From: Chthoniobacteraceae bacterium | Lineage (GTDB): Bacteria > Verrucomicrobiota > Verrucomicrobiia > Chthoniobacterales > Chthoniobacteraceae | Length of the DNA: 42,519 bases | Direction: 5' to 3' | NCBI GenBank assembly: GCA_947471505.1 | Contig: CANIWM010000056.1 | Coordinates: 1 to 42,519, forward strand | In this document: one piece after another, positions 7,433 through 40,272 of the stretch | How positions within the stretch are numbered: the stretch's first letter is position 1 | How the letters are laid out: the number at the start of each line of letters is the position of its first letter | The notes under the pieces: generated by a model | The model's database searches: none | What the model saw: only the letters and a program-made list of their open reading frames with translations | What the model was told of the DNA's origin: nothing | Translations under genes and position numbers: made by a program

Positions 7433-7620
7433 CGAGGTTTCTGTTGGAGATAACGTCAGGCGTTGAGGATTTTGTGCAGGCTAATTCCAATCGGCACGGA
7501 ATATAGCCGCAAATTTCCATGCGCGCCTCTCGGAGGCGTTACAAACCGGAGATTTTTGAAGCGCATCTTGCCAAACAAGTCGGCCCTGCTATCTCTCCGC
7601 CCCCTCGCCGAAATCTGCAT

Positions 7621-8550
7621 ATGATCCGAGTCCAACAACTGACCAAGAAATACGGCTCCTTCACGGCGGTGAAGGGCATCAGCTTTGAAGTCGCCAAGGG
7701 GGAAATCGTCGGCTTTCTCGGGCCGAATGGTGCCGGGAAATCTACGACGATGAAGATTCTCACGGGCTTCCTCCCGCCGACCACAGGGCGCGCATCCATC
7801 GCGGGGTTCGACGTTTTTGATAACAGCATCGAGGCCCGCCGCCGCCTCGGCTACCTGCCGGAGAACACCCCGCTGTATCCCGAGATGAGAGTCGGCGAAT
7901 ACCTTCGCTACCGTGCCGCGCTCAAGGGCGTGCGGGGCTCGAAGGTCCGCGAGCGCGTGGGAGATGTGATGGAGCTTTGCCAAGTAAATGACCGTGAGCG
8001 TCAACTAATCGGCTCGCTTTCCAAAGGCTACCGTCAGCGCGTCGGGCTGGCGGATGCACTGGTGCATGACCCCGATTTGCTCATCCTCGACGAACCGACC
8101 ATCGGCCTCGACCCCAACCAAATCCGCACGGTACGCGACCTCATCAAGAACCTCGCGGAGAAGCGCACCGTGCTGATCTCGACGCACATTCTTCCGGAAG
8201 TGGAGATGATGTGCTCCCGAGTGATCGTGATCCATAAGGGAGAAATCCGCGCGACCGATACGGCGGAAAATTTGCGCAAGAACCACCGCGCCGTGGGCGA
8301 ACTGTTGCTGGAAGCTCGGGCCGGGGCGGACGCAGCCGAGGCGCTGAGTAAGGTCTTCGGCGTGAAGGATGTCACTTCGTGTGCGAATGGCGACTGGACT
8401 CATTTCACCCTCCGACTGGATGCGAAAGCGGAGCCCGGCCTCGACATCATGCGCCTCGCCGCCGAGCGCAAATGGGACGTGCGCGAGATGCACCAAAAGC
8501 GGGCGACGCTCGAAGATGTCTTCGCGGAACTGACCACGGCGGACCATTAA
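7621..8550 (+). CDS. ABC transporter ATP-binding protein (GldA/CcmA-like)
   Basis: This cytosolic ATPase energises the membrane complex encoded just downstream. The 309-residue protein has Walker A GPNGAGKST (34-42), signature LSKGYRQR (133-140), Walker B LLILDEP (153-159) and the H-loop STHILPEVE. A C-terminal domain of about 90 residues follows, as in GldA/NatA-like proteins. The ATG at 7621 (MIRVQQLTKKYGSF) fits the family N-terminus; an upstream ATG at 7519 adds an unlikely Arg-rich lead. It starts a four-gene plus-strand operon with gaps of 6-12 bp. Confidence 0.93.
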   Translation: MIRVQQLTKKYGSFTAVKGISFEVAKGEIVGFLGPNGAGKSTTMKILTGFLPPTTGRASIAGFDVFDNSIEARRRLGYLPENTPLYPEMRVGEYLRYRAALKGVRGSKVRERVGDVMELCQVNDRERQLIGSLSKGYRQRVGLADALVHDPDLLILDEPTIGLDPNQIRTVRDLIKNLAEKRTVLISTHILPEVEMMCSRVIVIHKGEIRATDTAENLRKNHRAVGELLLEARAGADAAEALSKVFGVKDVTSCANGDWTHFTLRLDAKAEPGLDIMRLAAERKWDVREMHQKRATLEDVFAELTTADH

Positions 8551-8562
8551 ACCGATTTTCAA

Positions 8563-9324
8563 ATGAGAACTTTCTTCGTCCAAACGATGCGCGAGGTGCG
8601 CAGTATTTTTTACACGCCGGTGGCGTATGTGGTGATGACGCTGCTGCTCGTGCTACTGGGCTGGACCTTCCAGTATGCCGTGAGCGAGCTAAACCACAAT
8701 CCGACGGAATACACGGTCATGGAGCGGTGGTTCGTGAGCGGGCTGTTTTTCTTCATCCTGCCGATCACGACTTCGCTGGTGACGATGCGCTCTTTCTCCG
8801 AGGAGTTTCGCATGGGGACGATTGAGATGCTGACGACGGCCCCGGTGAAAGACTGGCAAATCGTCTGCGCGAAGTTCTTTGGCGCGCTCATCTTTTACTG
8901 CGTGGCATTTGCTCCGTCTGCGCTGTTCCTCGCGGTCTTCAGCCACGAGAGCGGCGGGCATCCAGCGGCGAGGGGGCTGGGGGCGATTTACAGCTCCTAC
9001 CTTTTGCTCATGCTCATCGTCATGCTGTTTGTTTCTGCGGGAAATTTGGCCAGCTCGCTGGTGAAGGATCAGGTGAATGCGGCAGTTATCAGCATCACGG
9101 TGAAGCTCCTGTTTCTGTTCGTGCCGCTGATGCTGGGATTGCTGCTGAATGTAACGGACCCTCGCGTGCGGATGCTGGGAGAATTCATCAGCCCGATCTC
9201 CCACATGAACGACGCTGCGGGCGGCATCGTGGATACCCGGCGCATCATCTGGTATCTCTCGCTCACGGCATTCTTCGTCATCCTGACGCATCACATTTTC
9301 CACAGCCGGAAGCTGAAATCCTAG
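8563..9324 (+). CDS. ABC-2 type permease (GldF-like)
   Basis: The 253-residue integral membrane protein has six predicted membrane segments, starting with VAYVVMTLLLVLLGWTFQYAV and ending with IIWYLSLTAFFVILTHHIF. It carries the family signature stretch SFSEEFRMGTIEMLTTAPV.DWQIV.AKF between segments 2 and 3. It pairs with the preceding ATPase (12 bp gap) and precedes the GldG-like gene by 6 bp. By family it forms the channel of an ABC-2 exporter; the substrate in non-gliding bacteria is unknown. Confidence 0.9.
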   Translation: MRTFFVQTMREVRSIFYTPVAYVVMTLLLVLLGWTFQYAVSELNHNPTEYTVMERWFVSGLFFFILPITTSLVTMRSFSEEFRMGTIEMLTTAPVKDWQIVCAKFFGALIFYCVAFAPSALFLAVFSHESGGHPAARGLGAIYSSYLLLMLIVMLFVSAGNLASSLVKDQVNAAVISITVKLLFLFVPLMLGLLLNVTDPRVRMLGEFISPISHMNDAAGGIVDTRRIIWYLSLTAFFVILTHHIFHSRKLKS

Positions 9325-9330
9325 ACCACC

Positions 9331-11073
9331 ATGGAAACACCCGAACCCAACCAACCCCCGAAAGACGCAGCGCCGAAGCTGCGCATTGGCCGCATCGAAA
9401 TCGGAATCAACGTCATCATCCAGCTCGCCGTATTACTGGCGATGGTGGTGATGGTGAACTCACTGAGCGCGAAGTATTACAAGCGATGGAACTGTGTGAA
9501 ACGAAACCACAGCGACCTGAGTCCCATGACGCGCAGCCTGCTCGAGAATCTACAGAAACCAATCAAGGTGATCGTGTTTTTCTCGAGAATGGGAGAGGTG
9601 GAACAGGACGCTCGTGCCTTACTACGAGAATACGAATTTGCGGCAGCCGGGAAGCTCAGCATCGAGGATGTGGACCCGGAGGTGAACTTCGCCCGGGCGC
9701 GGGAACTCCAGACCAAATACAAGTTCGACCAGAAGGAGAACATCATCATCCTCGACTACGACGGGCGGAGCAAATTCATCAACTCCATCGAGATGGCGGA
9801 GATGGAGGAATGGGACCGAATGAAGGATTTCGAGGTGCAGATGAGGAAGCGCCCGCCCCAGCAGATGCTGGCATTCCAAGGCGAACAAGTCCTCACCAAC
9901 GAAATCCTCGCACTCACCGAGCCAAAGCAAAACCGGCTCTATGTCGTCAACGGCCACGGCGAGTTTGATACCAGCGGCGGCAAGCTCCGGGCTCTGATGG
10001 AATATACGAGGCGGCAGAACCTCCTTCTCGTCAACCTGACCATCGCCGACTTCGAAAAAATCCCCGACGACGCGAACATGGTGCTCGTGCTCGGACCGAA
10101 ATTCGACTTCAGCGCACGCGACCTTAAAGTGCTGAGCGACTATTGGGACAAGAAGGGCCGCATCCTCCTCTCAGTCGGAAAAACAGGCGGCAAGACGCCC
10201 AATCTTTTCAAATGGGTCGAAGAACGCGGCGTGCGGCTGATGGACGACTACGTCTTGCACCGAATCAATCTCACCGGCATCCCAGAAGTCGAGTCTGGCG
10301 GCATCGTTTCGGGAGCCACGTCGCCCATCACGGAGGGGATCGAAGGGCTCAGCGTCGAACTGCTCGGAGCGACCCAATCCATGAGGTTGAATCGCGAAAA
10401 AGACTTTCAATTACGGTATAAGCTCACCGGCATCATGGTTTCCCCGAGAGACTATTGGGGCGACACCGAGTTCAATGTCGGCGACGGTGCGGACACGGCC
10501 CTCTTCGACCCCCAAAAGGACCACAGCGGCGCGCTCACCCTTGCCGTCCAGGTCGAAAAAGGCGCATCCGTTGATCCCAACGTGAAGCTCGAAACACCCC
10601 GCCTCGTCGTCGTCGGCAACAGCGACTTCGTATCGGACGACGGGCTTCGCGTCGCACCCACGGTGATCAACCTCGCCTCGAACTGCATCAATTGGCTCCT
10701 CGGTCGCGAAACGCTCATCAAAGTCCCGCCCAAAGTGAAGGAACGGATGACCCTCTCGCTCACCTTGGAGCAGCTCAACACCATCCGTGTCTGGGTGGTG
10801 ATTTACCTCCCGCTCTGCATCGCGCTCCTCGGCATCTACTACCTCTCGTGGAGGAACCAGAAGAACCTGTTTATCCTCACTGCGTGGGTCGCCTTTACCT
10901 TCCTCCAACTCGTCCTCGCTTGGTATCTCCTGCTTTGGAAACTCGGGATGGAAGAGGCTAAAATTGTCCCGCGAAATCTCATCATCGCCGTCGGAATCGC
11001 CGTATCGCTCGGGGCGATCTCCATTGTGGTGAATCACTACGAAAATCAGAAGCGCGCCGCAGCGAAGAGCTAA
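9331..11073 (+). CDS. GldG-family ABC transporter auxiliary protein
   Basis: The 580-residue protein has an N-terminal membrane segment (about 28-47, INVIIQLAVLLAMVVMVNSL). A large extracytoplasmic region of the GldG/intraflagellar-transport-like type follows (LSPMTRSLLENLQKPIKVIVFFSR; RLYVVNGHGEFDTSGG; MVLVLGPKFDFSARDLKVL), then two or three membrane segments near residues 485-570. In Bacteroidetes, GldF/GldG act with GldA; related sets occur in non-gliding phyla with no proven substrate. The position between the permease and the DUF4340 gene matches such clusters. Confidence 0.88.
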   Translation: METPEPNQPPKDAAPKLRIGRIEIGINVIIQLAVLLAMVVMVNSLSAKYYKRWNCVKRNHSDLSPMTRSLLENLQKPIKVIVFFSRMGEVEQDARALLREYEFAAAGKLSIEDVDPEVNFARARELQTKYKFDQKENIIILDYDGRSKFINSIEMAEMEEWDRMKDFEVQMRKRPPQQMLAFQGEQVLTNEILALTEPKQNRLYVVNGHGEFDTSGGKLRALMEYTRRQNLLLVNLTIADFEKIPDDANMVLVLGPKFDFSARDLKVLSDYWDKKGRILLSVGKTGGKTPNLFKWVEERGVRLMDDYVLHRINLTGIPEVESGGIVSGATSPITEGIEGLSVELLGATQSMRLNREKDFQLRYKLTGIMVSPRDYWGDTEFNVGDGADTALFDPQKDHSGALTLAVQVEKGASVDPNVKLETPRLVVVGNSDFVSDDGLRVAPTVINLASNCINWLLGRETLIKVPPKVKERMTLSLTLEQLNTIRVWVVIYLPLCIALLGIYYLSWRNQKNLFILTAWVAFTFLQLVLAWYLLLWKLGMEEAKIVPRNLIIAVGIAVSLGAISIVVNHYENQKRAAAKS

Positions 11074-11085
11074 GCCAGTTTTGCC

Positions 11086-13011
11086 ATGAAGAAGTTTCGC
11101 ACTACGTTCATTCTCATTTTCCTCGGCCTCGCCTTGTGGGTCTATCTGGAGGTTTTCGACCCTCGGATTGCCGGCACCGACGATGCGCCTCAAGTCATCG
11201 CCGTCGACCGCAGCACCCTCATCGGTTTAACGATCCAAAATGGCGAGGGAACGATGGAGTTCTCGCGGACGAATGGCACGTGGTTCCTCGAATCACCCAT
11301 CAAAGACCGGGCTGATGATGAGAGTCTCGTGAAGCTCTTTACGACCGTCGAAGGGCTCGACATGAACCTCCGCAAAGTCCCCGAACCGAAGGGAAAAGAC
11401 ATCAAGGAAATCCAGAAGGAACTCGGCGTGGCGAAGGGAGACGTAAGCATCAAATTCACCGAACCATCGGGAGGGAGAAAGCCGCTTGAGCTCTTCATCG
11501 GCAAGAAAACTGCCGTCGAAGGCAAAGTTTACGCCCGCATCAACGGCGCCGACGCCATCTACACCCTGCCGTCTGAAATTCGCGACCAACTCAGCAAGGG
11601 CGTCAAAGACTGGCGCGACCGCAAGCTTGCCGCCATCTCCGTGAGCGAGGTGAACAAAGTCATCCTCAAGACCGCCAAGGGGGAGATCGAAGCAGGGCGC
11701 AAGAGCGGCAACTGGTCACTCGTCCGCCCACTCAAAGCCCGTGCCGATAACCAGCGGATCAACGATTTAATCGCCAACGCAGCATCGCCACGGATTGAGG
11801 ACTTCATCCCTGACTCCAAGGACCTCAGCACGTTGGGGCTCACCGAGCCTCGGGTCACCGTAGTTCTCTACATTGAAGGCGGCAAAGAGCCCGTCACCAT
11901 CCAAGTCGGCGCGAACAAAAAAGGCGTAGATGACGCAAAGCCTCTCGCTTACGTCAAAGTCAGCACCCGGGCAGGCGTCGTGACGGCCCCCGCAGCCATC
12001 GAGAGCCTCGCCCTCACCCTTCCCAACGACCTCCGCGACGCCAGCCTCATCCGCGTCCAAGCCGACATCGTGGACCGCATCACCCTCGAAGGCGGTGGGT
12101 CAAAAATCATCATCGGGCGCGACGGCGAAAGCTGGAAACGCAAATCCAAGCCCGAAGAGCCTGTGAACTCCATCGCAGCTAAAAAATTGCTCGATGACCT
12201 CACCACCGCCAAGAGCGTCCGCTTTGTCGAAGATGTCGGTAGCGACCTCAAAAAATACGGCCTCGACCAGCCCACCGCCACCGTCACCCTCAGCAGCTAC
12301 TCCACCGAAGGCACTCCCGAAACAACGCCCGGCGACAAGCCCATCGCCCGACTCCTCATCGGCAATCCCGACGGAAACACCGACACCGTCTTCGCCAAAC
12401 TCGACGACGAGCCCTACATCGTCGCCGTCTCCAAGCTCCTCACCGAGAACATCTGGACCGACCCTCTCCAATGGCAAGAACTCCGGCTCTACGACAACCT
12501 TCCCGCCGACATCGTCCACCTCGAAATCACCAAAGCCGAGCAACCCGCCATCACTCTCGACCTCGGCCAAGACAAACTCTGGAAGCTGGCAAAAGGCGAC
12601 GGCACCGTGAACCAAATCGCCGTCCAATCCCTCATCAACACCCTCTCTACCCTCCGCGCCGTCCGCTGGGCAGGAGCCACAAAAGCTACCGAGCAAGGGC
12701 TCGAAAAACCCGCAATCACCGTCACCTTCACCCTCGCCGATAAGAAGACCGGCAAACTCCGCATCGGCAGCATGAACAGTGACCGCCTCCGCCACGCGCT
12801 CATCGAAGGCAAAACAGGCACCGCACTGCTCAATCGGCCCGATGTGAGCGCCTTCGAAGCCGCACTCATCGAAGGCCAAAAGCCGCCAACTGACACCCCG
12901 ACTCCTCCCACCAATCTCTCCCCTGAGCCCCTAAAGCCCGCCGCTCCGCCCAAGACCCAAGAAGCCCCGGCAGGCGAGACAAAACCCGCTCCCGAACCTT
13001 CCCCGAAATAG
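11086..13011 (+). CDS. DUF4340 domain protein
   Basis: The 641-residue protein has one N-terminal membrane anchor (FRTTFILIFLGLALWVYLEVF) and a long extracytoplasmic part with repeated DUF4340-type units. Each unit resembles 'I.L....G.W.L..P....AD...I..L...' (residues about 30-200, 200-380 and 380-590). The last 50 residues are Pro-rich (TPTPPTNLSPEPLKPAAPP). It follows the GldG-like gene by 12 bp and completes the ABC cluster. DUF4340 proteins regularly accompany GldFG-like transporters; the biochemical role is unknown, probably binding or scaffolding at the cell surface. Confidence 0.88.
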   Translation: MKKFRTTFILIFLGLALWVYLEVFDPRIAGTDDAPQVIAVDRSTLIGLTIQNGEGTMEFSRTNGTWFLESPIKDRADDESLVKLFTTVEGLDMNLRKVPEPKGKDIKEIQKELGVAKGDVSIKFTEPSGGRKPLELFIGKKTAVEGKVYARINGADAIYTLPSEIRDQLSKGVKDWRDRKLAAISVSEVNKVILKTAKGEIEAGRKSGNWSLVRPLKARADNQRINDLIANAASPRIEDFIPDSKDLSTLGLTEPRVTVVLYIEGGKEPVTIQVGANKKGVDDAKPLAYVKVSTRAGVVTAPAAIESLALTLPNDLRDASLIRVQADIVDRITLEGGGSKIIIGRDGESWKRKSKPEEPVNSIAAKKLLDDLTTAKSVRFVEDVGSDLKKYGLDQPTATVTLSSYSTEGTPETTPGDKPIARLLIGNPDGNTDTVFAKLDDEPYIVAVSKLLTENIWTDPLQWQELRLYDNLPADIVHLEITKAEQPAITLDLGQDKLWKLAKGDGTVNQIAVQSLINTLSTLRAVRWAGATKATEQGLEKPAITVTFTLADKKTGKLRIGSMNSDRLRHALIEGKTGTALLNRPDVSAFEAALIEGQKPPTDTPTPPTNLSPEPLKPAAPPKTQEAPAGETKPAPEPSPK

Positions 13012-15020: not shown

Positions 15021-15482
15021 ATGCCGGGAACGTCTTTTTATAAACGCAGTAATTTTGTCACGCACTTGCCCGTGGACTGCCGCTACAGCCCCTCGCACTT
15101 CTGGCTGGCGGATATGGGCGGCGGGCGGTGGCGCGTGGGCTTTACGAAGTTCGCCACTCGGATGCTGGGCGAGATTGTCGAGGTGCGGTTTGAGAAAAAA
15201 GCGGGCGATGCGCTGGCAAGCGGCGACATCGTGGGAAGCATCGAGGGCTTTAAGGCAATCAGCGACCTTTACTGCTGCGCCGTGGGCGAATTTGCGGCGG
15301 CGAACCCGGCGCTGGCGACGAACATTGATGCGGTCGGCGATGACCCTTACGGCGCGGGCTGGCTCTACGAAGTCCTCGGCGAGCCGGATGAGAAGTGCAT
15401 CACGATGGAGGCGTATCGCGGGATGCTGGACGCGACGATTGATAAGATTATGGAGAAGCAAAGCAGCGACTACGGAGCATGA
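15021..15482 (+). CDS. GcvH-like lipoyl carrier protein
   Basis: The 153-residue protein has the glycine-cleavage H-protein fold: a YSPSHFWLADMGGGRWRVGFTKFA opening, LGEIVEVRFEKKAGD, and the lipoylation hairpin GSIEGFKAISDLY with Lys78 as the expected lipoyl site, then DPYGAGWLYEV. An N-terminal lead of about 18 residues is longer than in ordinary GcvH. No gcvT or gcvP lies nearby. Instead its stop overlaps the start of a CobW-like GTPase (ATGA), and a Cys-rich small protein follows. It is probably a dedicated lipoyl carrier for another pathway; this is inferred from context. Confidence 0.85.
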   Translation: MPGTSFYKRSNFVTHLPVDCRYSPSHFWLADMGGGRWRVGFTKFATRMLGEIVEVRFEKKAGDALASGDIVGSIEGFKAISDLYCCAVGEFAAANPALATNIDAVGDDPYGAGWLYEVLGEPDEKCITMEAYRGMLDATIDKIMEKQSSDYGA

Positions 15483-16579
15483 GCAAGGCACGCTATATCA
15501 TGATCGGCGGCTTCCTCGGCGCGGGGAAAACGACGGCGGTGGCCGCGCTGGCGCAGCGTCTCGCCGGGCTGGGGCAGCGCGTCGGCCTCATCACGAACGA
15601 CCAAGGCAGCGAGCTGGTGGATACGGCGATGCTGCGGGCGAAGGGCTTCGAGACCGAGGAGATCGTGGGCGGGTGTTTTTGCTGTCGGTTTAACACGCTC
15701 ACGGATGCGGCCAAGCGGCTGACGGAGAGCACGCGGCCCGATGTGTTCATCGCGGAGCCCGTGGGGAGTTGCACGGATTTGGTGGCGACGGTGACGTATC
15801 CGCTGCGGAGGATTTACGGCGACTCGTTCACCGTCGCACCGCTGAGCGTGCTCGTGGACCCCGTGCGCGCCGAGCGTGTGCTGGGGCTGGCGGAAGGGGC
15901 GCAGTTCTCCAGCAAGGTAACGTATATCTTCCGCAAGCAGCTCGAAGAGGCGGACATCATCGTCATCACAAAAACCGACACCATAGACGAGGCGCGACTG
16001 GCGCGACTGCGGGCGGCGCTGGCGGCGGCGTTCCCGAAGTCCGAAGTGCTGGCAATCAGCGTCCGCGACGGCACCGGGCTCGACGCATGGTTCTCGCGCA
16101 TGACCACGGGCGAGCAGGCCGAGCGCCCTACGATGGCGGTGGACTACGCACTTTATGCCGAAGGCGAGGCGCTCCTCGGCTGGCTGAACGCGACCATCCA
16201 AGTGCGCGGCGTTCCCGCGTTCGATGCGGATACGATTTTGAAGGCGCTCGCGGGCGAAATGCAGCGCGCGCTCAGCGGCGAGATTGCCCATTTAAAAATG
16301 ACGCTGAACCCCGACTCCGGCCTCGGCGACATCGCGGCGATCAATTTGGTCCGCAGTGATTTCGTCCCCGAGCTTTCGCTGCGCCTAGAGGCCCCTATCG
16401 AGAGCGCGCAGATCATCCTAAACTGCCGCGCCGAAGCCGCCCCCGAAGACATCCGCGATGCGTTGAATGAAGCCGTCGCCGCGATCCAAAACGGCGGCAT
16501 CTCGGCGAAAATCGAGCACCTCGAATTCTTCCGCCCCGGCAAACCCGAGCCCACCCACCGCGACCTGATTTCCGCCTGA
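15479..16579 (+). CDS. CobW/G3E-family GTP-binding protein
   Basis: The 366-residue protein has a P-loop GGFLGAGKTT (10-19), the G3E metal motif GGCFCC (64-69; Cys66, 68 and 69), a FIAEPVGSC block and the base-recognition motif TKTD (about 162-165). The family comprises nucleotide-driven metallochaperones or activators of metalloenzymes (CobW, HypB, UreG and MeaB relatives). The C-terminal half lacks a His-rich tail. It overlaps the lipoyl gene by 4 bp and the Cys-rich gene by 1 bp (TGATG), so the three are translationally coupled. It probably delivers metal, or a conformational push, to a partner in this operon. Confidence 0.9.
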   Translation: MSKARYIMIGGFLGAGKTTAVAALAQRLAGLGQRVGLITNDQGSELVDTAMLRAKGFETEEIVGGCFCCRFNTLTDAAKRLTESTRPDVFIAEPVGSCTDLVATVTYPLRRIYGDSFTVAPLSVLVDPVRAERVLGLAEGAQFSSKVTYIFRKQLEEADIIVITKTDTIDEARLARLRAALAAAFPKSEVLAISVRDGTGLDAWFSRMTTGEQAERPTMAVDYALYAEGEALLGWLNATIQVRGVPAFDADTILKALAGEMQRALSGEIAHLKMTLNPDSGLGDIAAINLVRSDFVPELSLRLEAPIESAQIILNCRAEAAPEDIRDALNEAVAAIQNGGISAKIEHLEFFRPGKPEPTHRDLISA

Positions 16580-16926
16580 TGCGAATCCTCTACTGCCACT
16601 GCCAATACGCCCAAGTCGTCCCGAAAGAAGTGAAAGCCGCAGTGCTCCAAAGCCTGTGCGACAGCGGCGTGGCCTTCGACGCCGTGGCCGACCTCTGCGA
16701 AATGTCCGCCCGCAAAGACCCCGCGCTCAAAGAACTCGCGAGCGGCTGCGTGAAAATCGCGGCCTGCTTCCCCCGAGCCGTGAAGGGCCTCTTTCACCAA
16801 TGCGGCGCAGACCTCGACCCAGCGCAGGCCGAGATTCTCAACATGCGGACGCTGACGGCGGAGGAAGTCACCGCGCGACTGGCAGCGGCAGATGTGCTGC
16901 CGAATGTGCCAGTGAAGGCGGGGTAA
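16579..16926 (+). CDS. Cys-rich small protein, possible Fe-S/redox partner
   Basis: The 115-residue protein begins MRILYCHCQYAQVVPKEV and has seven Cys at 6, 8, 27, 40, 57, 63 and 75. The blocks VADLCEMSARKDP and IAACFPRAVKGLF resemble iron-sulfur segments of HdrA-like or ferredoxin-domain proteins, but I cannot assign a named family. There is no membrane segment. It is coupled to the CobW gene by a TGATG overlap. A redox protein matured by, or working with, the GTPase and the lipoyl carrier is a reasonable inference. Confidence 0.75.
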   Translation: MRILYCHCQYAQVVPKEVKAAVLQSLCDSGVAFDAVADLCEMSARKDPALKELASGCVKIAACFPRAVKGLFHQCGADLDPAQAEILNMRTLTAEEVTARLAAADVLPNVPVKAG

Positions 16927-17668: not shown

Positions 17669-18055
17669 TTACCAAATGCGATCCACCCCGTAATTGTCGA
17701 ACGCCGCATCGCAACCTACGACCGTCATCCCATCTACCAACGCCTGTGCCGTAATCATTCGGTCGAACGGATCACGGTGGTGCAACGGCAACGTGTGATA
17801 ACGGTGGAGATGCTCCGCCCGAATTGGCAGGATAGAAAAACCGTGCGCCTCCAATGCACTGGGAAAGAGCACCTCGAACGGTTTCGGTAAATCCAATTTC
17901 CCAAGCTGCGACTTGATCGCCATCTCCCATCCCGTCGCCATACTCACCCACCGCTCATTCGTCGCATCTTCGATTTGCTCCCGCGCCACAGCACTAAGTT
18001 TCGGGTCGTCTTCCAGAAACCAAATCAGCGCGTGCGTATCCAGCAGCAGCTTCAT
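17669..18055 (-). CDS. vapC: VapC-like PIN-domain toxin
   Basis: The 128-residue PIN-domain protein has the four acidic positions of the nuclease site: Asp6 in LLLDTHALIWFL, Glu in GWEMAIKSQLGKL, Asp in HRDPFDRMI, and a distal Asp in VVGCDAAF. Length matches VapC RNases, which cleave RNA when not bound by antitoxin. Its start overlaps the stop of the antitoxin gene (18052-18055), the usual TA coupling. The toxin assignment is strong by family and context; the RNA target is unknown. Confidence 0.92.
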   Translation of the reverse strand: MKLLLDTHALIWFLEDDPKLSAVAREQIEDATNERWVSMATGWEMAIKSQLGKLDLPKPFEVLFPSALEAHGFSILPIRAEHLHRYHTLPLHHRDPFDRMITAQALVDGMTVVGCDAAFDNYGVDRIW

Positions 18056-18330: not shown

Positions 18331-18519
18331 TCACGCTGGTTTCGAGCCAGCGGGTGGCGGCACCTGTGGGTGAAGTTGATTGAGCCATACAAAATCCACG
18401 GGCTCGCCCTCAAACGCCATACTCGCCGCGACCTGACGCGGAATCTCACGCCAGCGCCGCAACAGCCGCTCCTCCTCTGGCAACGCACGCCAGAGGGCAA
18501 TGGAATCAAGGTAGCTCAT
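18331..18519 (-). CDS. Small hypothetical protein (62 residues)
   Basis: It starts MSYLDSIALWRALPEEERLLRRW and continues REIPRQVAASMAFEGEP, a compact helical pattern, ending PPPAGSKPA. The ATG at 18519 is preferred over one at 18549, as the first ten residues of the longer form look unstructured. It lies 42 bp before vapB on the same strand and may share its transcript. I do not recognise a named family; the composition looks like a small DNA-binding or antitoxin-like protein, but that is a guess. Confidence 0.5.
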   Translation of the reverse strand: MSYLDSIALWRALPEEERLLRRWREIPRQVAASMAFEGEPVDFVWLNQLHPQVPPPAGSKPA

Positions 18520-18566
18520 ACAGCGGAGAGTATGCACCGAGCGCATCATTGCAAGCTCCTGAACGG

Positions 18567-18608
18567 GTATCCGGCAGCAGCTTCATTCCGTATACTCCCG
18601 GAAGTCTT
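18567..18608 (-). pseudogene. Fragment duplicating the vapB/vapC junction
   Basis: These 42 bp match 18036-18077, the end of vapB and the start of vapC, with three or four differences. On the minus strand they still read MKLLPDT where the intact toxin reads MKLLLDT. No further vapC sequence follows, so this is a scrap of a second TA locus or of a local duplication. Confidence 0.7.
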
Positions 18609-18742
18609 ACGGATGCGCGACGGCTCGCATCGCGGGGTTTGCAGCGGCGTTCAAGTCCGCCTGCATCGGCAGCACGCTGCTGGTCTTCTGGCACCAAGAC
18701 GCCAGCCTTGCCACGCGTCCGATTCTTTGGCACGCCCATCCC

Positions 18743-18847
18743 ATGCCCGAGCCCTACACGTTTCTAAATCTCACCGACTTCACCCTCGGCGCACTTACCG
18801 GCTTCCTCCCGTCGCAGGCGGCGCACGCCTCACCATCAATCCTATGA
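18743..18847 (+). CDS. Possible 34-residue leader ORF coupled to the STAND gene
   Basis: An ATG at 18743 opens a 34-codon frame (MPEPYTFLNLTDFTLGALTG, ending ASPSIL) whose TGA overlaps the ATG of the large STAND gene (ATGA). This arrangement is typical of translational coupling. The peptide is hydrophobic in the middle and matches nothing I know. It may instead be chance, or a remnant of another gene's end. Confidence 0.3.
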   Translation: MPEPYTFLNLTDFTLGALTGFLPSQAAHASPSIL

Positions 18848-21800
18848 ACAAGAAACTCTTCCTCTCCACCGTCAGCAGCGAGTTTGCGGAATACCGCAAG
18901 CTCCTCACCTCCGACCTCAAGCGCCCCGAACTCGACGTCGCCGTGCAGGAAGACTTCATCGTCACCGACGGCACGACGCTGGAGAAACTCGACAAATACA
19001 TCCGCCATTGCGACGGCATCATTCACCTCATCGGCAAAGCCACCGGAGCCGTCCCCGAGGAACCCGCCGTCGCCGCACTGCTCGCACGGTATCCCGATTT
19101 CGCCGCCAAGCTCCCGCCGCTTGCCGCGCTGCTCGCCCAGCCGCAGCCGGGGTTCTCCTACACGCAGTGGGAGGCATACCTCGCCATCTACCACCAGCGC
19201 CCGCTTTTCGTCTATCGCCCCACCGATTTCGACCTCGCCGTTCTCAACGTCCCTCGCGACGCCCGCTTCGTCTTCAACGCCGCCGAAGAGCGTTCACAAA
19301 AAGAACACTACGCCCGCATCAGCGCGCTTGGGCGCGACCGCGGGCAGTTCTTAAATGAAGAGCGGCTCAGCTCGGCAGTGCTGCGCGATCTTGTCGAGAT
19401 TCTCCCCCGGCTGGAGACGACCATCGTCGTCCCGCCCACCAAACTCCGCCACACCGCCGAACTGCTCATCGGGCGCGATGAAGACCTTGCCCGGCTGGAT
19501 ACCGCTTGGAACGACTCCCGCAAAAACGTCGTCATCGTCCGCGCCTTTGGCGGTATGGGGAAGACCTCCCTCGTCGCAAATTGGATGGCCGAGCTGGCCA
19601 TGAAAAACTGGCGCGGTGCCCGGCGCGTCTTCGACTGGTCTTTCTACAGTCAGGGCACCAACGACCAGCGCGCCGCCTCCGCCGACTCCTTCATCGCCGC
19701 AGCCCTCACTGCGTTCGGCGACCCCGATCCCGTGCTCGGTTCCCCGTGGGAGCGCGGCGCACGACTCGCCGCGTTGGTGGCGAAAGAGCGCTGCCTGCTC
19801 GTGCTCGATGGACTGGAGCCATTGCAATTCCCGCCCGGCGCTATGGAGGGGAAACTCAAGGACCAAGCCATCGAAGCCCTGCTCAAAGGACTCGCCGCCC
19901 AAAACGCCGGGCTCTGCGTCGTCACCACGCGGGAAAAAGTCCCCGACATCCAGCAGCACTACGGACGCACGGCAGACGACATCGCGCTCACTGCCCTCAC
20001 CGACCTCGCAGGCGCGGCCCTCCTGCATCACCACGGAACCACGCACGCCGGGGCGAGCTCCATCGCCCGCGACCACAAGGAACTCCAAACCGCCAGCCGC
20101 GAAGTCCGCGGCCACGGCCTCACGCTCCAATTGCTCGGCCAATATCTCCGGCTCGTGGAAGGCGGCGACATCCTCAAGCGCGGCACCGTCCGCCTTGCCG
20201 ACGCCGACCACGAATACCAAAACGACGCCACCCGCCCCTACGGCCACGCCTTCAAAGCCATGGAAGCCTACGAGAAATGGTTCCAGCGCGAGGGCGACAA
20301 AGGGCAGCGCCAGCTCGCCGTCCTCCGCCTGCTCGGCCTCTTCGACCGCCCCGCCTCCAAAGACTGTCTCGAAGCCCTGCGCAAAGAGCCCGTCATCGCC
20401 GGGCTGACCGAGCCGCTCGTCGGACTGGCTCCCCGCGACTGGACCCTTGTCACAAGCCGTCTGGCGGAAATCAATCTCGTCACCGTACAAGACGACGGCG
20501 GGCTGGATGCCCATCCACTCCTGCGGGAATACTTCGCGATGAAGCTCCGCGAGCAGCAGCCCGAGAGTTGGAAGGCCGCGCACCGGCGGCTCTACGAACA
20601 CCTCTGCGCGACGACGAAGGAAGGCGACCAGCCCACGCTCGAAGCCCTCCAACCGCTCTACCAAGCCGTGGCCCACGGCTGCCAGGCGGGCTTGCAGCAG
20701 GAGGCGTGTGACAAGGTTTACTTCGCCCGCATCATGCGAGGGGACGAATACTACAGCTCAAAAAAACTCGGCGCGCTCGGTTCAAGCTTGGGGGCCGTCG
20801 CCTGCTTCTTCGAGACCACGTGGAGCCGCACCTCGACTGCGCTAAACGAAGCCGACCAATCTTGGCTGCTGAACGAAACAGCCTACTACCTGCGTGCATT
20901 GGGTCGGGCGACTGAGGCACTCGAGCCGATGCGGGCAACCATCGCGTTTTACACCAAGAACGGTCATTGGAAGCAAGCCGCCCAAGGCGCCAGCAACCTG
21001 AGCGAGCTGGAGCTGACGCTGGGCGAGGTGGCCGGGGCGGTGGGGGACGCCGAGCAGTCCGTGACCTACGCCGACCGCAGCGGTGATGCGTTTCAGCGGA
21101 TGAGCAAACGCACGACCCATGCCGACGCCCTGCACCAGGCGGGCCGCCGGGACGAGGCTGAGGCGCGCTTCCGCGAGGCCGAGCAGATGCAGGCCGAGCG
21201 CCAGCCCGACTACCCGCTGCTGTATTCGCTTCCGGGCTTCCAGTATTGCGACCTGCTCTTGGCGGAGGCGGAACGCCAAGGAGCGGCGACATTCCTGTCG
21301 CTGTCCCCCATAGCGCGAAGCGCCCAATCTATTTCGCGCTCGAACGTCGATCCCGCCGCCTTGCCAGAAGATGGTGCTGCTCCGCCGCAAGCAGAGACAG
21401 CGACAAGAATGTCGCCGCTCCTTGGGCGCTGCCGCGCCGTCTCCGAGCGCGCGGCGCAGACGCTCAAGTGGGTGACCGACGCCAAGATGAGCCTCCTCAC
21501 CATCGCCCTCGACCACCTCACCCTAGGCCGCGCCGCGCTCTACGCGACGATTCTCGGTTCACCCGATTCCGCACTCCGCATTCCGCATTCCGAATTGGAC
21601 TCCGCCGTCTCCGGCCTCCGCCGCGCCGGCACGCAAGACATGCTCCCCCACGCCCTCCTCACCCGCGCCTGGCAGCGGAGCCTCACCGGCGCCCTGACTT
21701 CCGCGCAAGCCGGCCCCGACAGCGCGCAGAGCGACCTGGACGAAGCATGGGAAATCGCCGAGCGCGGGCCGATGCCGCTTTTCCTCGCGGACATCCACCT

Positions 21801-22032
21801 TCACCGCGCACGACTGTTTGGAATGCGGAGAGCGGAAAGGAGAGGCGGGCGCGTATCCGTGGGATTCCGCGCAACACGACCTCGCCGAAGCCCGCCTCCT
21901 CATCGAGAAACACGGCTACCACCGCCGCCTGCCCGAACTCGAAGACGCCGAAGCCGCCCTCGGCGTCGCGTCGCCCGCGCCCCGCAACGATTAGCCCGCC
22001 GACGCGTAGAGCGCCGAAGGTGCGAGATGTGA
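18844..22032 (+). CDS. DUF4062-NTPase-TPR protein (STAND family), C-terminus frameshifted
   Basis: This large (1062-residue) cytosolic signal-transduction ATPase starts MNKKLFLSTVSSEFAEYRKLL, a DUF4062 domain (1-130, TIR-like fold in the family). An NB-ARC/STAND NTPase follows with Walker A GGMGKTS (236-242), Walker B LLVLDG (318-323), sensor VVTTRE and the winged-helix HPLLREYFAMKLRE. TPR-like helices fill residues 650-1000. Relatives act as ligand-triggered switches, several in anti-phage defence or cell death; the role here is inferred. An in-frame palindrome sits at 21274-21428. After about 21815 the reading frame is Arg-rich nonsense, whereas the +1 frame gives a family-like end (AYPWDSAQHDLAEARLLIEK, stop at 21994). 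Start chosen because DUF4062 begins there. Confidence 0.87.
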   Translation: MNKKLFLSTVSSEFAEYRKLLTSDLKRPELDVAVQEDFIVTDGTTLEKLDKYIRHCDGIIHLIGKATGAVPEEPAVAALLARYPDFAAKLPPLAALLAQPQPGFSYTQWEAYLAIYHQRPLFVYRPTDFDLAVLNVPRDARFVFNAAEERSQKEHYARISALGRDRGQFLNEERLSSAVLRDLVEILPRLETTIVVPPTKLRHTAELLIGRDEDLARLDTAWNDSRKNVVIVRAFGGMGKTSLVANWMAELAMKNWRGARRVFDWSFYSQGTNDQRAASADSFIAAALTAFGDPDPVLGSPWERGARLAALVAKERCLLVLDGLEPLQFPPGAMEGKLKDQAIEALLKGLAAQNAGLCVVTTREKVPDIQQHYGRTADDIALTALTDLAGAALLHHHGTTHAGASSIARDHKELQTASREVRGHGLTLQLLGQYLRLVEGGDILKRGTVRLADADHEYQNDATRPYGHAFKAMEAYEKWFQREGDKGQRQLAVLRLLGLFDRPASKDCLEALRKEPVIAGLTEPLVGLAPRDWTLVTSRLAEINLVTVQDDGGLDAHPLLREYFAMKLREQQPESWKAAHRRLYEHLCATTKEGDQPTLEALQPLYQAVAHGCQAGLQQEACDKVYFARIMRGDEYYSSKKLGALGSSLGAVACFFETTWSRTSTALNEADQSWLLNETAYYLRALGRATEALEPMRATIAFYTKNGHWKQAAQGASNLSELELTLGEVAGAVGDAEQSVTYADRSGDAFQRMSKRTTHADALHQAGRRDEAEARFREAEQMQAERQPDYPLLYSLPGFQYCDLLLAEAERQGAATFLSLSPIARSAQSISRSNVDPAALPEDGAAPPQAETATRMSPLLGRCRAVSERAAQTLKWVTDAKMSLLTIALDHLTLGRAALYATILGSPDSALRIPHSELDSAVSGLRRAGTQDMLPHALLTRAWQRSLTGALTSAQAGPDSAQSDLDEAWEIAERGPMPLFLADIHLHRARLFGMRRAERRGGRVSVGFRATRPRRSPPPHRETRLPPPPARTRRRRSRPRRRVARAPQRLARRRVERRRCEM
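21274..21428. repeat. Palindromic element embedded in the STAND reading frame
   Basis: Arms 21274-21305 and 21396-21428 are inverted repeats with one mismatch and one indel (core GGAGCGGCGACATTC). They enclose about 90 bp. In protein terms it inserts about 50 residues of low-complexity sequence between TPR helices without breaking the frame. A similar half element (CGGCAGGAATGCCGTCGCTC) is at about 22510-22535. Confidence 0.8.
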
Positions 22033-23612: not shown

Positions 23613-24782
23613 ATGGCCACTGAACTTTCTTACGTCTTACTCACACCTTACACCATGCGCAAAAGCCGCACGGGGGGGATCATCTCACGCCTGATTTCCC
23701 GCACAGGGCTCGACCTTGTGGCTGCGCGCGTCTTTACACCGGGGGCAGAACTCACGGAGAAGTTCGCGGCGGGGCAGGTGACGGATAGCGATATGAGCCA
23801 TCGCGCCGCGCAGGAGCTGATCCAGAAGTATGTGCTGTCCCATTTCACCGGCGGCACATCGGGGACGAAACCTCGGGTGATCGTGCTCGTTTTCCGTGGG
23901 GAAGACGCGGTGAAGAAGATCAAAGAGAGCGTGGGGCATATCCTGAATGAGCGCACGGCGGGCGAGACGATTCGCGATACTTACGGGGACTACATCACCG
24001 ATGCGCAGGGGAATGTGACTTACTTTGAGCCGGGTGCGTTGGCCCCGCCGGATGCGGCGAGCGCGGAGCGAGATTTGCGTCTGCTGGCGCAGTATTCGGA
24101 CAGCGAAGGCGGCGTGATGGACGCAGCCATCGAGTTCCCGAAAGGCGCGAACGTCGAGAAGACGCTGGTGCTGATCAAGCCGGACAATTTCCAGTTCCCG
24201 AACGCGCGTCCGGGCGGCGTGATTGACCTCTTCAGCCGCACGGGGCTCTACATCATCGGGATGAAGGTGCATCACATGAGCTGCGCGCAGGCGGAGGAGT
24301 TCTACGGGCCTGTGCTGGCAGTGCTTCAGGATAAACTGCGCGGCCGTGCGGCGAGCATCGCAAAAGGTGCGCTGGAGCCGAAGTTCGAGATCACTTTCAC
24401 CCCCGAGCAGGAGAAGGCGCTGGGCGATTTGCTCGGGCCGATCACGGGACGGGAGAATTGGGAGGACATCGTGGAGTTTATGAGCGGACGCCGCCCGAGC
24501 ACTTGCCCGGCGGACCTCCGTAATGCTCCCGGCACGGCGAAGATCGTCGCGCTGATTTACCAAGGCGTCGATGCCGTGGCGAAAATCCGCGAGGTCCTCG
24601 GGCCGACCGACCCTTCCAAGGCACCACACGGCACGATTCGCCGCGAGTATGGCCAGAGCATCATGGTCAACGCTGCACACGCCAGCGACGCCGCCGAAAA
24701 CGCGGTCCGGGAAACCGGCATCATCCAAATCAACGAAAACAATTTCCGCACGCTCATCGAAGCGGCGTACGCAAAACAGTAA
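23613..24782 (+). CDS. Tandem nucleoside-diphosphate-kinase domain protein
   Basis: The 389-residue protein has two NDK-like halves. The N-terminal one (1-150; YVLLTPYTMRKSRTGGIISRL) lacks the NxxHxSD active-site motif. The C-terminal one (165-389; TLVLIKPDNFQFPNARPGGV) retains NAAHASD with His356 as the phosphorylated residue. NDK transfers phosphate between NTPs and NDPs; ordinary bacterial Ndk is about 140 residues, so this is an enlarged form with an insert around 255-300. It is followed by the aminotransferase after 24 bp, possibly one transcript. Confidence 0.85.
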   Translation: MATELSYVLLTPYTMRKSRTGGIISRLISRTGLDLVAARVFTPGAELTEKFAAGQVTDSDMSHRAAQELIQKYVLSHFTGGTSGTKPRVIVLVFRGEDAVKKIKESVGHILNERTAGETIRDTYGDYITDAQGNVTYFEPGALAPPDAASAERDLRLLAQYSDSEGGVMDAAIEFPKGANVEKTLVLIKPDNFQFPNARPGGVIDLFSRTGLYIIGMKVHHMSCAQAEEFYGPVLAVLQDKLRGRAASIAKGALEPKFEITFTPEQEKALGDLLGPITGRENWEDIVEFMSGRRPSTCPADLRNAPGTAKIVALIYQGVDAVAKIREVLGPTDPSKAPHGTIRREYGQSIMVNAAHASDAAENAVRETGIIQINENNFRTLIEAAYAKQ

Positions 24783-38352: not shown

Positions 38353-40272
38353 TCATGCGACGTGTTGGTCTGCGACGGGCTTGCTGCCTAGCTCGGCGAT
38401 CACTTTCTCTACGAGGTTCGCTGCGGTGAGGCCGTGCTTCTTTCGCAGAATGTCGGGCGCTCCGTGTTCGACGAATTGGTCCGGCCAGCCGATGCGAATC
38501 ACTGGGGTGGTGATGCGCTGCTCGGATAAATGCTCCATGACTGCGCAGCCGAAGCCGTTGTGCAAAACGTGGTCTTCCATCGTGCAGACCACGTCCACAC
38601 TGCGGGCGAAGAATTCGATGGTCGCGGTGTCGAGCGGCTTGATCCAGCGCGGGTTCACGACGGCGGTAGAGATGCCTTTCGACTCCAGCGTTGCCGCTGC
38701 TTCCTCCGCGAGTTGGCACATTCCGCCGAGGCCGAAGATGACCGCGCGGACGGGCTGTGTGCTGCCGTGTTTGATGACTTCTGCTTTGCCGATTTCCAGC
38801 AGCTTGGGCTGCGCTTTGGGCACGACGCCCGTGCCGCTGCCGCGTGGGTAGCGCATCGCGATGGGGCCGCTGTTGTGGTGCGCCATCGTCCAGAGCATGT
38901 CCACGAATTCGTCTTCGTCCTTCGGCTGCATGTGGACGAGGTTTGGGACGTGGCGGAGGTAGCCGATGTCGAAGAGGCCGTGGTGCGTCGGGCCGTCGTC
39001 GCCGCTGAGTCCGCCGCGATCCATACACAGTCGCACGGGCAGATTTTGCAGCGCGATGTCGTGGAGGATCATATCGTAGGCGCGCTGCATGAAGGTGGAG
39101 TAGATGGCGAGGAACGGCGCAAAGCCTTCGCACGCCAGCCCTGCTGCAAACAAGGCGGCGTGCTCTTCCGCGATGCCGACATCGAAGTAGCGCGTCGGGT
39201 GTGCCTTGGCGAAACTGATGAGCCCCGTGCCGCTCGGCATCGCTCCGGTGATGCCGACGATCTTGTTGTTCGTCTCCGCAAACTTCGAGAGCGTGGTGCC
39301 CAGCAGTTCGCTGAAAGTAGGGGAGGGGGCTGCTTTGGTCGCGCCCGTTTTTGGCTCAAAACGGCCCAGCCCGTGAAACTTCAGCGGCTGCTCCAGCGCA
39401 GGCGCGTAGCCTTTTCCTTTGGTGGTGAGGATGTGCAGAATGACCGGCTCATCCTGCGTCTTGAGGAACTCCAGCGTGCGGATGAGGAGCTGCACATCGT
39501 GCCCATCAATCGGCCCGTAGTAGCGCACGCCCATGTCGTCGAAGAGGACGCTCGGTGCGATGAGTCCCTTCACGCCGGTCTCGACGCGGTGGGCGAGATT
39601 TTTCACGCGAGGGCCGAGCAATTTCTCCACGAGTCGCGCCGCGCGCTCATGCAGGCCGGAGTAGGTGGGGCTGGTGGAGATTTTGCTAAAGTAGCGCGCG
39701 ATGGCTCCGACGTTGCGGTCGATGCTCCACTCGTTGTCGTTGAGGATCACGATGAGTTTTTTCGTATGCTCGGCGATGTTGTTCAGCGCCTCATACGTGA
39801 CTCCGCAGGTAAAAGCCGCATCCCCCGCGACGCACACCACGCTTTCATCCGAGCCGCGCATATCGCGCGCCGTCGCCATGCCGAGCGCGGCGGAGAGCGC
39901 CGTGCCCGCGTGCCCAGCGCCGTAGCAATCATGCGGGCTCTCGGTGCGCAGCATGAAGCCGTTCAAGCCCCCGAATTGCCGCATCGTGCCAAAGCGTTCG
40001 CGCCGTCCGGTGAAGATTTTGTGCACGTACGCTTGGTGCGAAACGTCGAAGACAAACTTGTCCTTCGGCGTGGTGAAGACGCGGTGCAGCGCAATCGTCA
40101 GCTCCACCACGCCGAGGTTTGGCCCGAGGTGTCCACCGACGGAAGTCGGGTTATCTTCCGAGAGCACGCGGATGAGTTCCGCGCGCACCTCTTCGGCTAA
40201 ACGCGGCAGTTCCTTTTCAGGCAGAGCCTTGACGTCGTCGGGTGAATTAATGGTTGGCAGTATAGCTGGCAT
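38353..40272 (-). CDS. dxs: 1-deoxy-D-xylulose-5-phosphate synthase
   Basis: The 639-residue thiamine-diphosphate enzyme condenses pyruvate and glyceraldehyde 3-phosphate in the first step of the MEP isoprenoid pathway. Motifs: GHLGPNLGVVELTIALH, GHAGTALSAALGMA, the ThDP-binding GDAAFTCGVTYEALNN with NDNEWSI, GLSGDDGPTHHGLFDIGYLR and VMEHLSEQRI near the end. The canonical GDGALTAG is changed to GDAAFTCG but keeps the metal-binding Asp. Length is normal. xseB lies upstream on the same strand, the classical xseB/dxs neighbourhood. Confidence 0.95.
   Translation of the reverse strand: MPAILPTINSPDDVKALPEKELPRLAEEVRAELIRVLSEDNPTSVGGHLGPNLGVVELTIALHRVFTTPKDKFVFDVSHQAYVHKIFTGRRERFGTMRQFGGLNGFMLRTESPHDCYGAGHAGTALSAALGMATARDMRGSDESVVCVAGDAAFTCGVTYEALNNIAEHTKKLIVILNDNEWSIDRNVGAIARYFSKISTSPTYSGLHERAARLVEKLLGPRVKNLAHRVETGVKGLIAPSVLFDDMGVRYYGPIDGHDVQLLIRTLEFLKTQDEPVILHILTTKGKGYAPALEQPLKFHGLGRFEPKTGATKAAPSPTFSELLGTTLSKFAETNNKIVGITGAMPSGTGLISFAKAHPTRYFDVGIAEEHAALFAAGLACEGFAPFLAIYSTFMQRAYDMILHDIALQNLPVRLCMDRGGLSGDDGPTHHGLFDIGYLRHVPNLVHMQPKDEDEFVDMLWTMAHHNSGPIAMRYPRGSGTGVVPKAQPKLLEIGKAEVIKHGSTQPVRAVIFGLGGMCQLAEEAAATLESKGISTAVVNPRWIKPLDTATIEFFARSVDVVCTMEDHVLHNGFGCAVMEHLSEQRITTPVIRIGWPDQFVEHGAPDILRKKHGLTAANLVEKVIAELGSKPVADQHVA

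Follow-up and report, generated by a model that had tools for sequence, protein, structure and literature searches.

The window analysed here is a stretch of 42,519 nucleotides from a Chthoniobacteraceae bacterium (Verrucomicrobiota; GenBank assembly GCA_947471505.1, contig CANIWM010000056.1), and at positions 15021-16926 it carries a cassette of three genes encoding a GcvH-like lipoyl-domain protein (gcvHl), a G3E-family GTPase (cobW) and a small Cys-containing protein (cysR). We propose, with a probability of roughly 55%, that this cassette serves an uncharacterised terpenoid pathway as its accessory module, and that the other genes of the pathway are dispersed in this genome and clustered in its relatives. 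Gene order, co-occurrence and intact motifs show that a polyprenyl synthetase fusion (PPS), two cyclase-type proteins (SQC2 and SQC1), a radical S-adenosylmethionine (SAM) protein (rSAM) and cysR with a ferredoxin (cysR-fer) belong to a single gene system; gcvHl and a cysteine desulfurase have been added to it in part of the Verrucomicrobiota and the G3E GTPase in several lineages. The original prediction for this DNA, a lipoate-dependent redox or C1 pathway, was not borne out, since the linked genes are isoprenoid genes (PPS, SQC2 and SQC1) together with those for radical SAM, ferredoxin and cysteine desulfurase proteins.

The three genes are intact open reading frames (ORFs) on the same strand that overlap by 4 and 1 bp, as had been predicted: gcvHl at 15021-15482 (+, 153 aa; PF01597, E 2.7e-19), cobW at 15479-16579 (+, 366 aa; PF02492, E 4.1e-25) and cysR at 16579-16926 (+, 115 aa). 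The first two proteins have Pfam GCV_H and cobW domains, respectively, and the motifs noted for them are present: EGFK at residues 75-78 of GcvHl, in which the codon of the predicted lipoylation site Lys78 lies at 15252-15254 (+), and GCFCC, the CxCC motif of G3E GTPases, which begins at residue 65 of CobW (15671-15685, +). The reported absence of glycine-cleavage and lipoate genes nearby likewise stood, no domain of either kind being found in a Pfam scan of 25 further ORFs, the largest of the window.

The neighbourhood of gcvHl, cobW and cysR is more than chance. By coordinates (gaps <650 bp), 12 of the 31 cysR-bearing genomes of the family have the three genes together (our genomes G000, the window's own, to G003, G006, G007, G009, G011, G022, G026, G027 and G028), so that the order is conserved in some of the related genomes, and the same holds for two genomes outside the family (loci L071 and L075). 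Over 40 family genomes, cysR was found in 31, fer in 32, PPS in 33, gcvHl in 33, cobW in 34 (match at E<=1e-30) and rSAM in 31, with pairwise Fisher p values among these six families of 3e-3 to 1e-7, which ignore shared descent. The 33 genomes with SQC1 are those that have PPS, and four genomes (G010, G015, G016 and G017) are without all seven families. Among the 27 genomes that are at least 90% complete, cysR is always accompanied by fer, PPS, gcvHl, cobW and rSAM (20/20). Besides G021 and G031, which have just gcvHl and cobW of these families, the exceptions are G004, without cysR, G029, without cysR, fer and gcvHl, and G012, in which rSAM is present only as a contig-end piece; among less complete assemblies, they are G005 (76%; without gcvHl and rSAM), G028 (79%; without rSAM) and G033 (84%; without cobW and rSAM). 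The search for co-occurrence that the original prediction had called for thus links the families over the 40 family genomes and, in relatives, places the cassette genes in an isoprenoid cluster. Repeated gene order and co-occurrence together rule out chance neighbours.

The gene order in relatives makes the link to the isoprenoid genes explicit. In one genome of the window's family (G027, locus L031), all nine genes stand together: desulfurase (divergent), gcvHl, cobW, cysR, fer, rSAM, PPS, SQC1 and SQC2, and in a genome of another family (G326, L076) the order gcvHl-cobW-desulfurase-rSAM-cysR-fer-PPS-SQC1 is found on a single strand. Locus counts were obtained by searching six-frame translations with profiles, which were built from sequences found here and favour the window's family. 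Wide stretches were available for 15 of the 31 family genomes that have cysR and, among the 42 matching genomes from elsewhere, for 20. Neighbouring pairs (same strand, <600 bp apart) were counted over 130 loci, some of them from one genome, after 42 short loci (L039-L070, L091-L100) and nine named loci duplicating unnamed ones had been set aside. Core pairs were the most frequent (cysR-fer 103, PPS-SQC1 60, SQC1-SQC2 54, PPS-rSAM 39, fer-rSAM 37), followed by the accessory pairs cobW-cysR (12), cobW-gcvHl (12) and SQC2-cobW (5); desulfurase and gcvHl are neighbours in eight cases, seven of them on opposite strands. The five cases in which cobW directly follows SQC2 (L119, the Bacteroidota-titled L149, L168, L170, and L215 from G032 of the window's family) represent a second arrangement tying cobW to the pathway. 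A distance of about 2.6 kb separates gcvHl from SQC1-SQC2 in three genomes (G013, G019 and G038); since two opposite-strand genes intervene in G013, we did not count this arrangement as an operon. In the window's genome itself, every linked family was found except the desulfurase, for which no search was made there, mostly on other contigs: PPS at C53:34377-36059, rSAM at C8:27946-29181, SQC1 at C85:3253-4107, and fer and SQC2 together on C138.

The core is not restricted to this family. Of 387 genomes sampled from the whole phylum, 43 contain cysR, and a scan of named genomes returned at least 482 stretches encoding cysR-fer relatives, of which the best 80 were read. These 80 loci come from records titled Verrucomicrobia, Kiritimatiellae/Pontiella (including the cultured Pontiella sulfatireligans F21), Lentisphaerae, Planctomycetota groups, Omnitrophota and Bacteroidetes/Bacteroidia, with single bins titled Acidobacteriia, Thermoanaerobaculaceae, Desulfobacterales and Alphaproteobacteria; almost every record is a metagenome bin, and the labels of such bins can err. 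They contain fer (80), cysR (79), PPS (68), SQC1 (55), SQC2 (48) and rSAM (36), counts that are lower bounds since many contigs end early.

The partner genes retain the motifs of isoprenoid and radical enzymes, as judged by counts over fetched copies that include some genes twice. By its Pfam domains, PPS is a fusion of DUF116 and a polyprenyl synthetase, with the first DDxxD motif in 80/84 copies. SQC2 has the N and C domains of squalene-hopene cyclases (SHC) and keeps DxDDT, which lines up with its counterpart in PDB 1gsz, in 60/61 copies. It is not a canonical SHC, since a representative reached 122.2 bits against an SHC model cut-off of 431.1. Similarly, rSAM keeps CxxxCxxC in 55/57 copies and is not an HpnH-type enzyme, its score of 38.6 bits being below the HpnH cut-off of 225.05. 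The cluster resembles hopanoid clusters with HpnH in the DxDDT motif of its cyclase and in having a radical-SAM partner, but differs from them in these sub-cut-off scores and in that, of 17 genomes with the cluster tested outside the window's class, 16 yielded no squalene synthase. The desulfurase keeps the GSAC loop in 9/9 copies and matches NifS/IscS models below their cut-offs. A second radical-SAM type, of ~550 aa, follows fer where rSAM stands elsewhere (26/80 named loci, including L121, L125 and L127); it occurs mainly in Planctomycetota-titled records, and one representative scored 74.6 of 251 bits with TIGR04013.

The SQC1 protein was modelled with a mean confidence (pLDDT) of 93.3, and its best structural likeness is to the beta subunits of protein geranylgeranyltransferases (GGTase; Z 26.6; Foldseek E 1.8e-7), with type II terpene cyclases likewise among the matches. 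Against the beta subunits of RabGGTase and protein prenyltransferases, 263-265 residues align at 2.5-2.7 A with 16-17% identity, and the toroid fold is shared. Of the residues that we take to be the Zn ligands of RabGGTase, Asp is kept in SQC1, whereas Cys is replaced by Leu and His by Tyr (12 rows of alignment A5, read by eye). The gene at L031:15054-16001 and its relatives thus encode a bacterial protein with the GGTase-beta fold, which might be relevant to how the protein prenyltransferases of eukaryotes arose.

It is probable, judging from gene content, that SQC2 cyclises a polyprenyl diphosphate rather than squalene. No squalene/phytoene synthase (SQS_PSY, PF00494) turned up in 16 of the 17 cluster-bearing genomes tested outside the window's class, in assemblies that are 91-96% complete, and these include all nine in which SQC2 was read beside the cluster (G108, G124, G158, G176, G211, G259, G320, G329 and G434). 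Unless the gene is missing from the assemblies, these organisms would make no squalene of their own, and the product of PPS would therefore be the likely substrate of SQC2. Squalene is thus disfavoured as a substrate outside the class; within it, SQS_PSY was found in 26/26 genomes tested, four of them without the cluster, which leaves squalene possible there. In PPS, the first DDxxD is preceded at a distance of five residues by an Ala (HKASL, 80/84 fetched copies), which, by the usual rules, suggests a chain longer than C15.

Several lines of evidence set gcvHl apart from the ordinary H protein of glycine cleavage. It scores below the cut-offs of both gcvH models (TIGR00527, 74 vs. 115.85 bits; NF002270, 84.9 vs. 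117), and the window's genome encodes a second, canonical GcvH (C4:17115-17426), the gene immediately before it carrying both GCV_T domains. A 35-row tree puts the 21 GcvH-like and the 14 canonical GcvH sequences into one group each (support 100/100), the inner order of the GcvH-like clade being unsure because two of its rows have long branches. The motifs TKFAxRMLG and EG[FL]KA are kept in 21/21 gcvHl copies read (repeat rows from L051 and L145 left out). The suggestion that this H protein does not serve ordinary glycine cleavage is therefore upheld, and it is not the sole H protein of its genome. These results support the assignment of GcvHl as a putative lipoyl-type carrier outside glycine cleavage. 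A second H protein for glycine cleavage, or a lipoyl relay such as the one that Bacillus GcvH reportedly provides, standing among chance neighbours, would account for the GCV_H domain and the lipoyl motif, but is scarcely credible given the canonical GcvH with GcvT in the same genome and the separate clade of gcvHl with other recurring neighbours.

Comparison with other GcvH paralogues did not place gcvHl in any of the groups considered. By name and description, the NCBIfam family NF045810 "GcvH-related protein" (GcvH_rel_desulf) is similar, but gcvHl is not a member (29.1 bits vs. a cut-off of 150). SirTM/macrodomain operons (PMC4518038) include GcvH-L. This protein, too, is a paralogue of GcvH with a role outside glycine cleavage. 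In the loci read, neither a sirtuin nor a macrodomain gene was recognised, although no targeted search for them was made. The closest parallel, in which a GcvH-like protein has Hdr-type partners, is LbpA of sHdr sulfur oxidation. According to passages of PMC6067878, LbpA is encoded alongside hdr genes and a ligase dedicated to it and has two strictly conserved Cys, some archaeal LbpA excepted. Like LbpA, gcvHl encodes a GcvH-like single lipoyl domain with a conserved Lys, lies outside glycine cleavage and has an HdrA-type domain nearby; it differs in its neighbours, which are terpenoid genes, and in that only 8/21 copies have a Cys both within residues 1-30 and in the C-terminal part. Since the paired Cys that define LbpA are not conserved, gcvHl was rejected as an LbpA of sHdr systems.

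The cysR product is probably a stand-alone Fe-S (iron-sulfur) domain of the type found at the N-terminus of HdrA. It was originally described as a seven-Cys and likely Fe-S protein of 115 residues; seven Cys are indeed present (positions 6, 8, 27, 40, 57, 63 and 75), but that framing was overstated, as only four are conserved. Cys6, Cys8, Cys40 and Cys63 (codons at 16594-16596, 16600-16602, 16696-16698 and 16765-16767, all +) are each invariant in 68/68 rows, and C27, C57 and C75 are found in 18, 1 and 7 of the 68, respectively, in alignment A4, which comprises the window's cysR and 67 references hand-picked from 97 after short, weak (E >1e-7) and >85% identical copies had been dropped. The four invariant Cys are compatible with the binding of a predicted Fe-S cluster. 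Among 97 relatives, cysR is present in 31, all within the window's family, and in 85 of 106 copies counted it is fused in one ORF with a 2x[4Fe-4S] ferredoxin (fer); alignment A3 contains two genes twice. Genes for NuoF/NuoG-like and other Fe-S electron-transfer proteins, named by eye, recur upstream of cysR-fer (L119, L121, L135, L150, L152 and L171).

No Pfam family matched cysR at E<=1, and hmmsearch and phmmer of PDB sequences with cysR did not find HdrA, giving chance matches or none. By contrast, the AlphaFold2 model (pLDDT 94.5) has HdrA as its top match both in Foldseek (8rvu_A, E 8.9e-3, 24% identity) and in VIA (8rvy_A, Z 6.8, 108 aligned residues, 4.8 A, 21% identity). Both scores are modest and neither decides the matter, and in VIA corrinoid proteins and other Rossmann-like chains are near-tied from Z 6.5 down. 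Aligning cysR with 13 HdrA N-termini from genomes of the phylum in hhalign gave a probability of 77.5 and a score of 34.6; the highest values among 40 controls with shuffled columns were 2.1 and 18.1, respectively. The N-terminal domain of HdrA carries an Fe-S cluster, according to passages of PMC9012536, and cysR resembles it in likely fold, the CHC motif and a later Cys-x-Pro motif. In the profile alignment, three of the four invariant Cys line up with HdrA Cys and the third is two columns off; cysR also differs in being stand-alone or ferredoxin-fused and in lacking the flavin adenine dinucleotide (FAD) domain.

It could be asked whether gcvHl and cysR instead belong to Hdr-like sulfur trafficking, as an LbpA-type carrier and its HdrA-like partner, with an incidental terpenoid link. 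A GcvH-like protein adjoining an HdrA-N-like protein does recall the sHdr systems described in passages of PMC6067878. However, a search of the window's genome at E<=1e-60 found no HdrA, the linkage is with isoprenoid genes, and the terminal Cys are as infrequent as noted above, all of which make this explanation highly unlikely.

The cobW domain, Walker A motif and CxCC motif are all present in the GTPase, as expected for a G3E/CobW (COG0523) protein. Over 27 fetched copies, with some genes counted twice, CFCC is kept in all, one having S instead of the preceding G, and Walker A is intact in 26. The protein is not CobW proper, as it scored 49.6 bits with the cobalamin-type model TIGR02475, the cut-off of which is 332.1.

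We hypothesize that PPS makes a long prenyl diphosphate, which SQC2, with or without SQC1, would cyclise directly instead of squalene, and that cysR and the ferredoxin would supply low-potential electrons to a radical-SAM step. The G3E GTPase might hand a metal to one of the enzymes. GcvHl would be lipoylated on Lys78 through the ordinary lipoate pathway of the cell, and the window's genome does encode the lipoyl synthase LipA (384.1 bits, cut-off 310.25). The lipoylated protein may then act as a carrier of dithiol or sulfane sulfur between the desulfurase and the Fe-S or radical-SAM components; a putative role as dithiol or sulfur carrier serving the radical-SAM step is the mechanism that we favour for GcvHl. 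More specifically, the lipoyl group could be a swinging arm with which GcvHl ferries sulfur from the desulfurase, or an intermediate, to rSAM, with the HdrA-N/ferredoxin pair as relay, yielding a sulfur-bearing or radical-modified cyclic polyprenoid without squalene. We advance this elaboration tentatively and consider it unlikely.

Besides the shared descent ignored in the Fisher tests, several observations weigh against an accessory role of the cassette in the terpenoid pathway. The triple is contiguous in only the 12 of 31 genomes listed above, and the cassette of the window's genome does not adjoin terpenoid genes. Two family genomes, G021 (94% complete; L217, L218) and G031 (73%), have gcvHl and cobW and none of cysR, fer, PPS, rSAM and SQC1, a pattern that reflects either incomplete assembly or a separate role of gcvHl and cobW. 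In addition, the best 80 named loci show nine cobW, one of which (L166) is weak and on the opposite strand, a single gcvHl and no desulfurase; this scarcity indicates that the core does not need these genes alongside. The core is thus widespread and cobW sporadic, and, among the loci read, gcvHl and the desulfurase stand beside the core only in Verrucomicrobiota. The lipoyl step is the weakest link, because, outside the family, gcvHl was not seen in most of the cluster loci that were read.

These observations bear on the main rival explanation, in which gcvHl, cobW and the desulfurase mature or repair Fe-S or metal centres of the cluster enzymes, and perhaps of others, the terpenoid route itself involving no lipoyl chemistry. 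Consistent with this are the NifS/IscS likeness of the desulfurase and its GSAC loop, the three pathway proteins that are predicted Fe-S proteins, and the occurrence of gcvHl and cobW in G021 and G031 without pathway genes. However, gcvHl and cobW co-occur with the cluster inside the family, and the four genomes without all six families (G010, G015, G016 and G017) would need Fe-S proteins likewise. We therefore regard maintenance as possible, though on the unlikely side, and retain the accessory terpenoid module as the preferred reading.

A search of the open-access literature, with subscription journals and preprints outside its scope, found no paper on the cluster. The DUF116-polyprenyl synthetase fusion has been noted in Psta_0175 of Pirellula staleyi, with a predicted electron-transfer role for DUF116, in passages of PMC5898192 that leave the surrounding cluster unmentioned; this is the same domain fusion as in PPS. 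The genes described here point to an isoprenoid gene cluster that is large and apparently new to the literature and occurs in Verrucomicrobiota, Planctomycetota, Bacteroidota and other groups; its product may be a new membrane lipid or biomarker. The cluster also points to a lipoyl-type protein acting outside known complexes, and would put an HdrA-type domain and a GGTase-beta-fold protein into bacterial lipid synthesis.

Elsewhere in the window, DXP (1-deoxy-D-xylulose 5-phosphate) synthase, the first enzyme of the methylerythritol phosphate (MEP) isoprenoid route, is encoded at 38353-40272 (-), adjoined by the gene for the small subunit of exonuclease VII; it lies 21 kb from the cassette and is therefore not evidence of linkage. 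Upstream of the cassette, positions 7519-13011 hold a row of genes for an ABC transporter ATPase, an ABC-2 permease, an ABC_transp_aux (GldG-like) protein and DUF4340 proteins. Downstream are genes for a VapC-like PIN-domain protein (17669-18055, -), a large NACHT protein of the STAND-type ATPases with a DUF4062 match below cut-off (18370-22032), and a 389-aa protein with three stretches matching nucleoside diphosphate kinase (NDK; 23613-24782).

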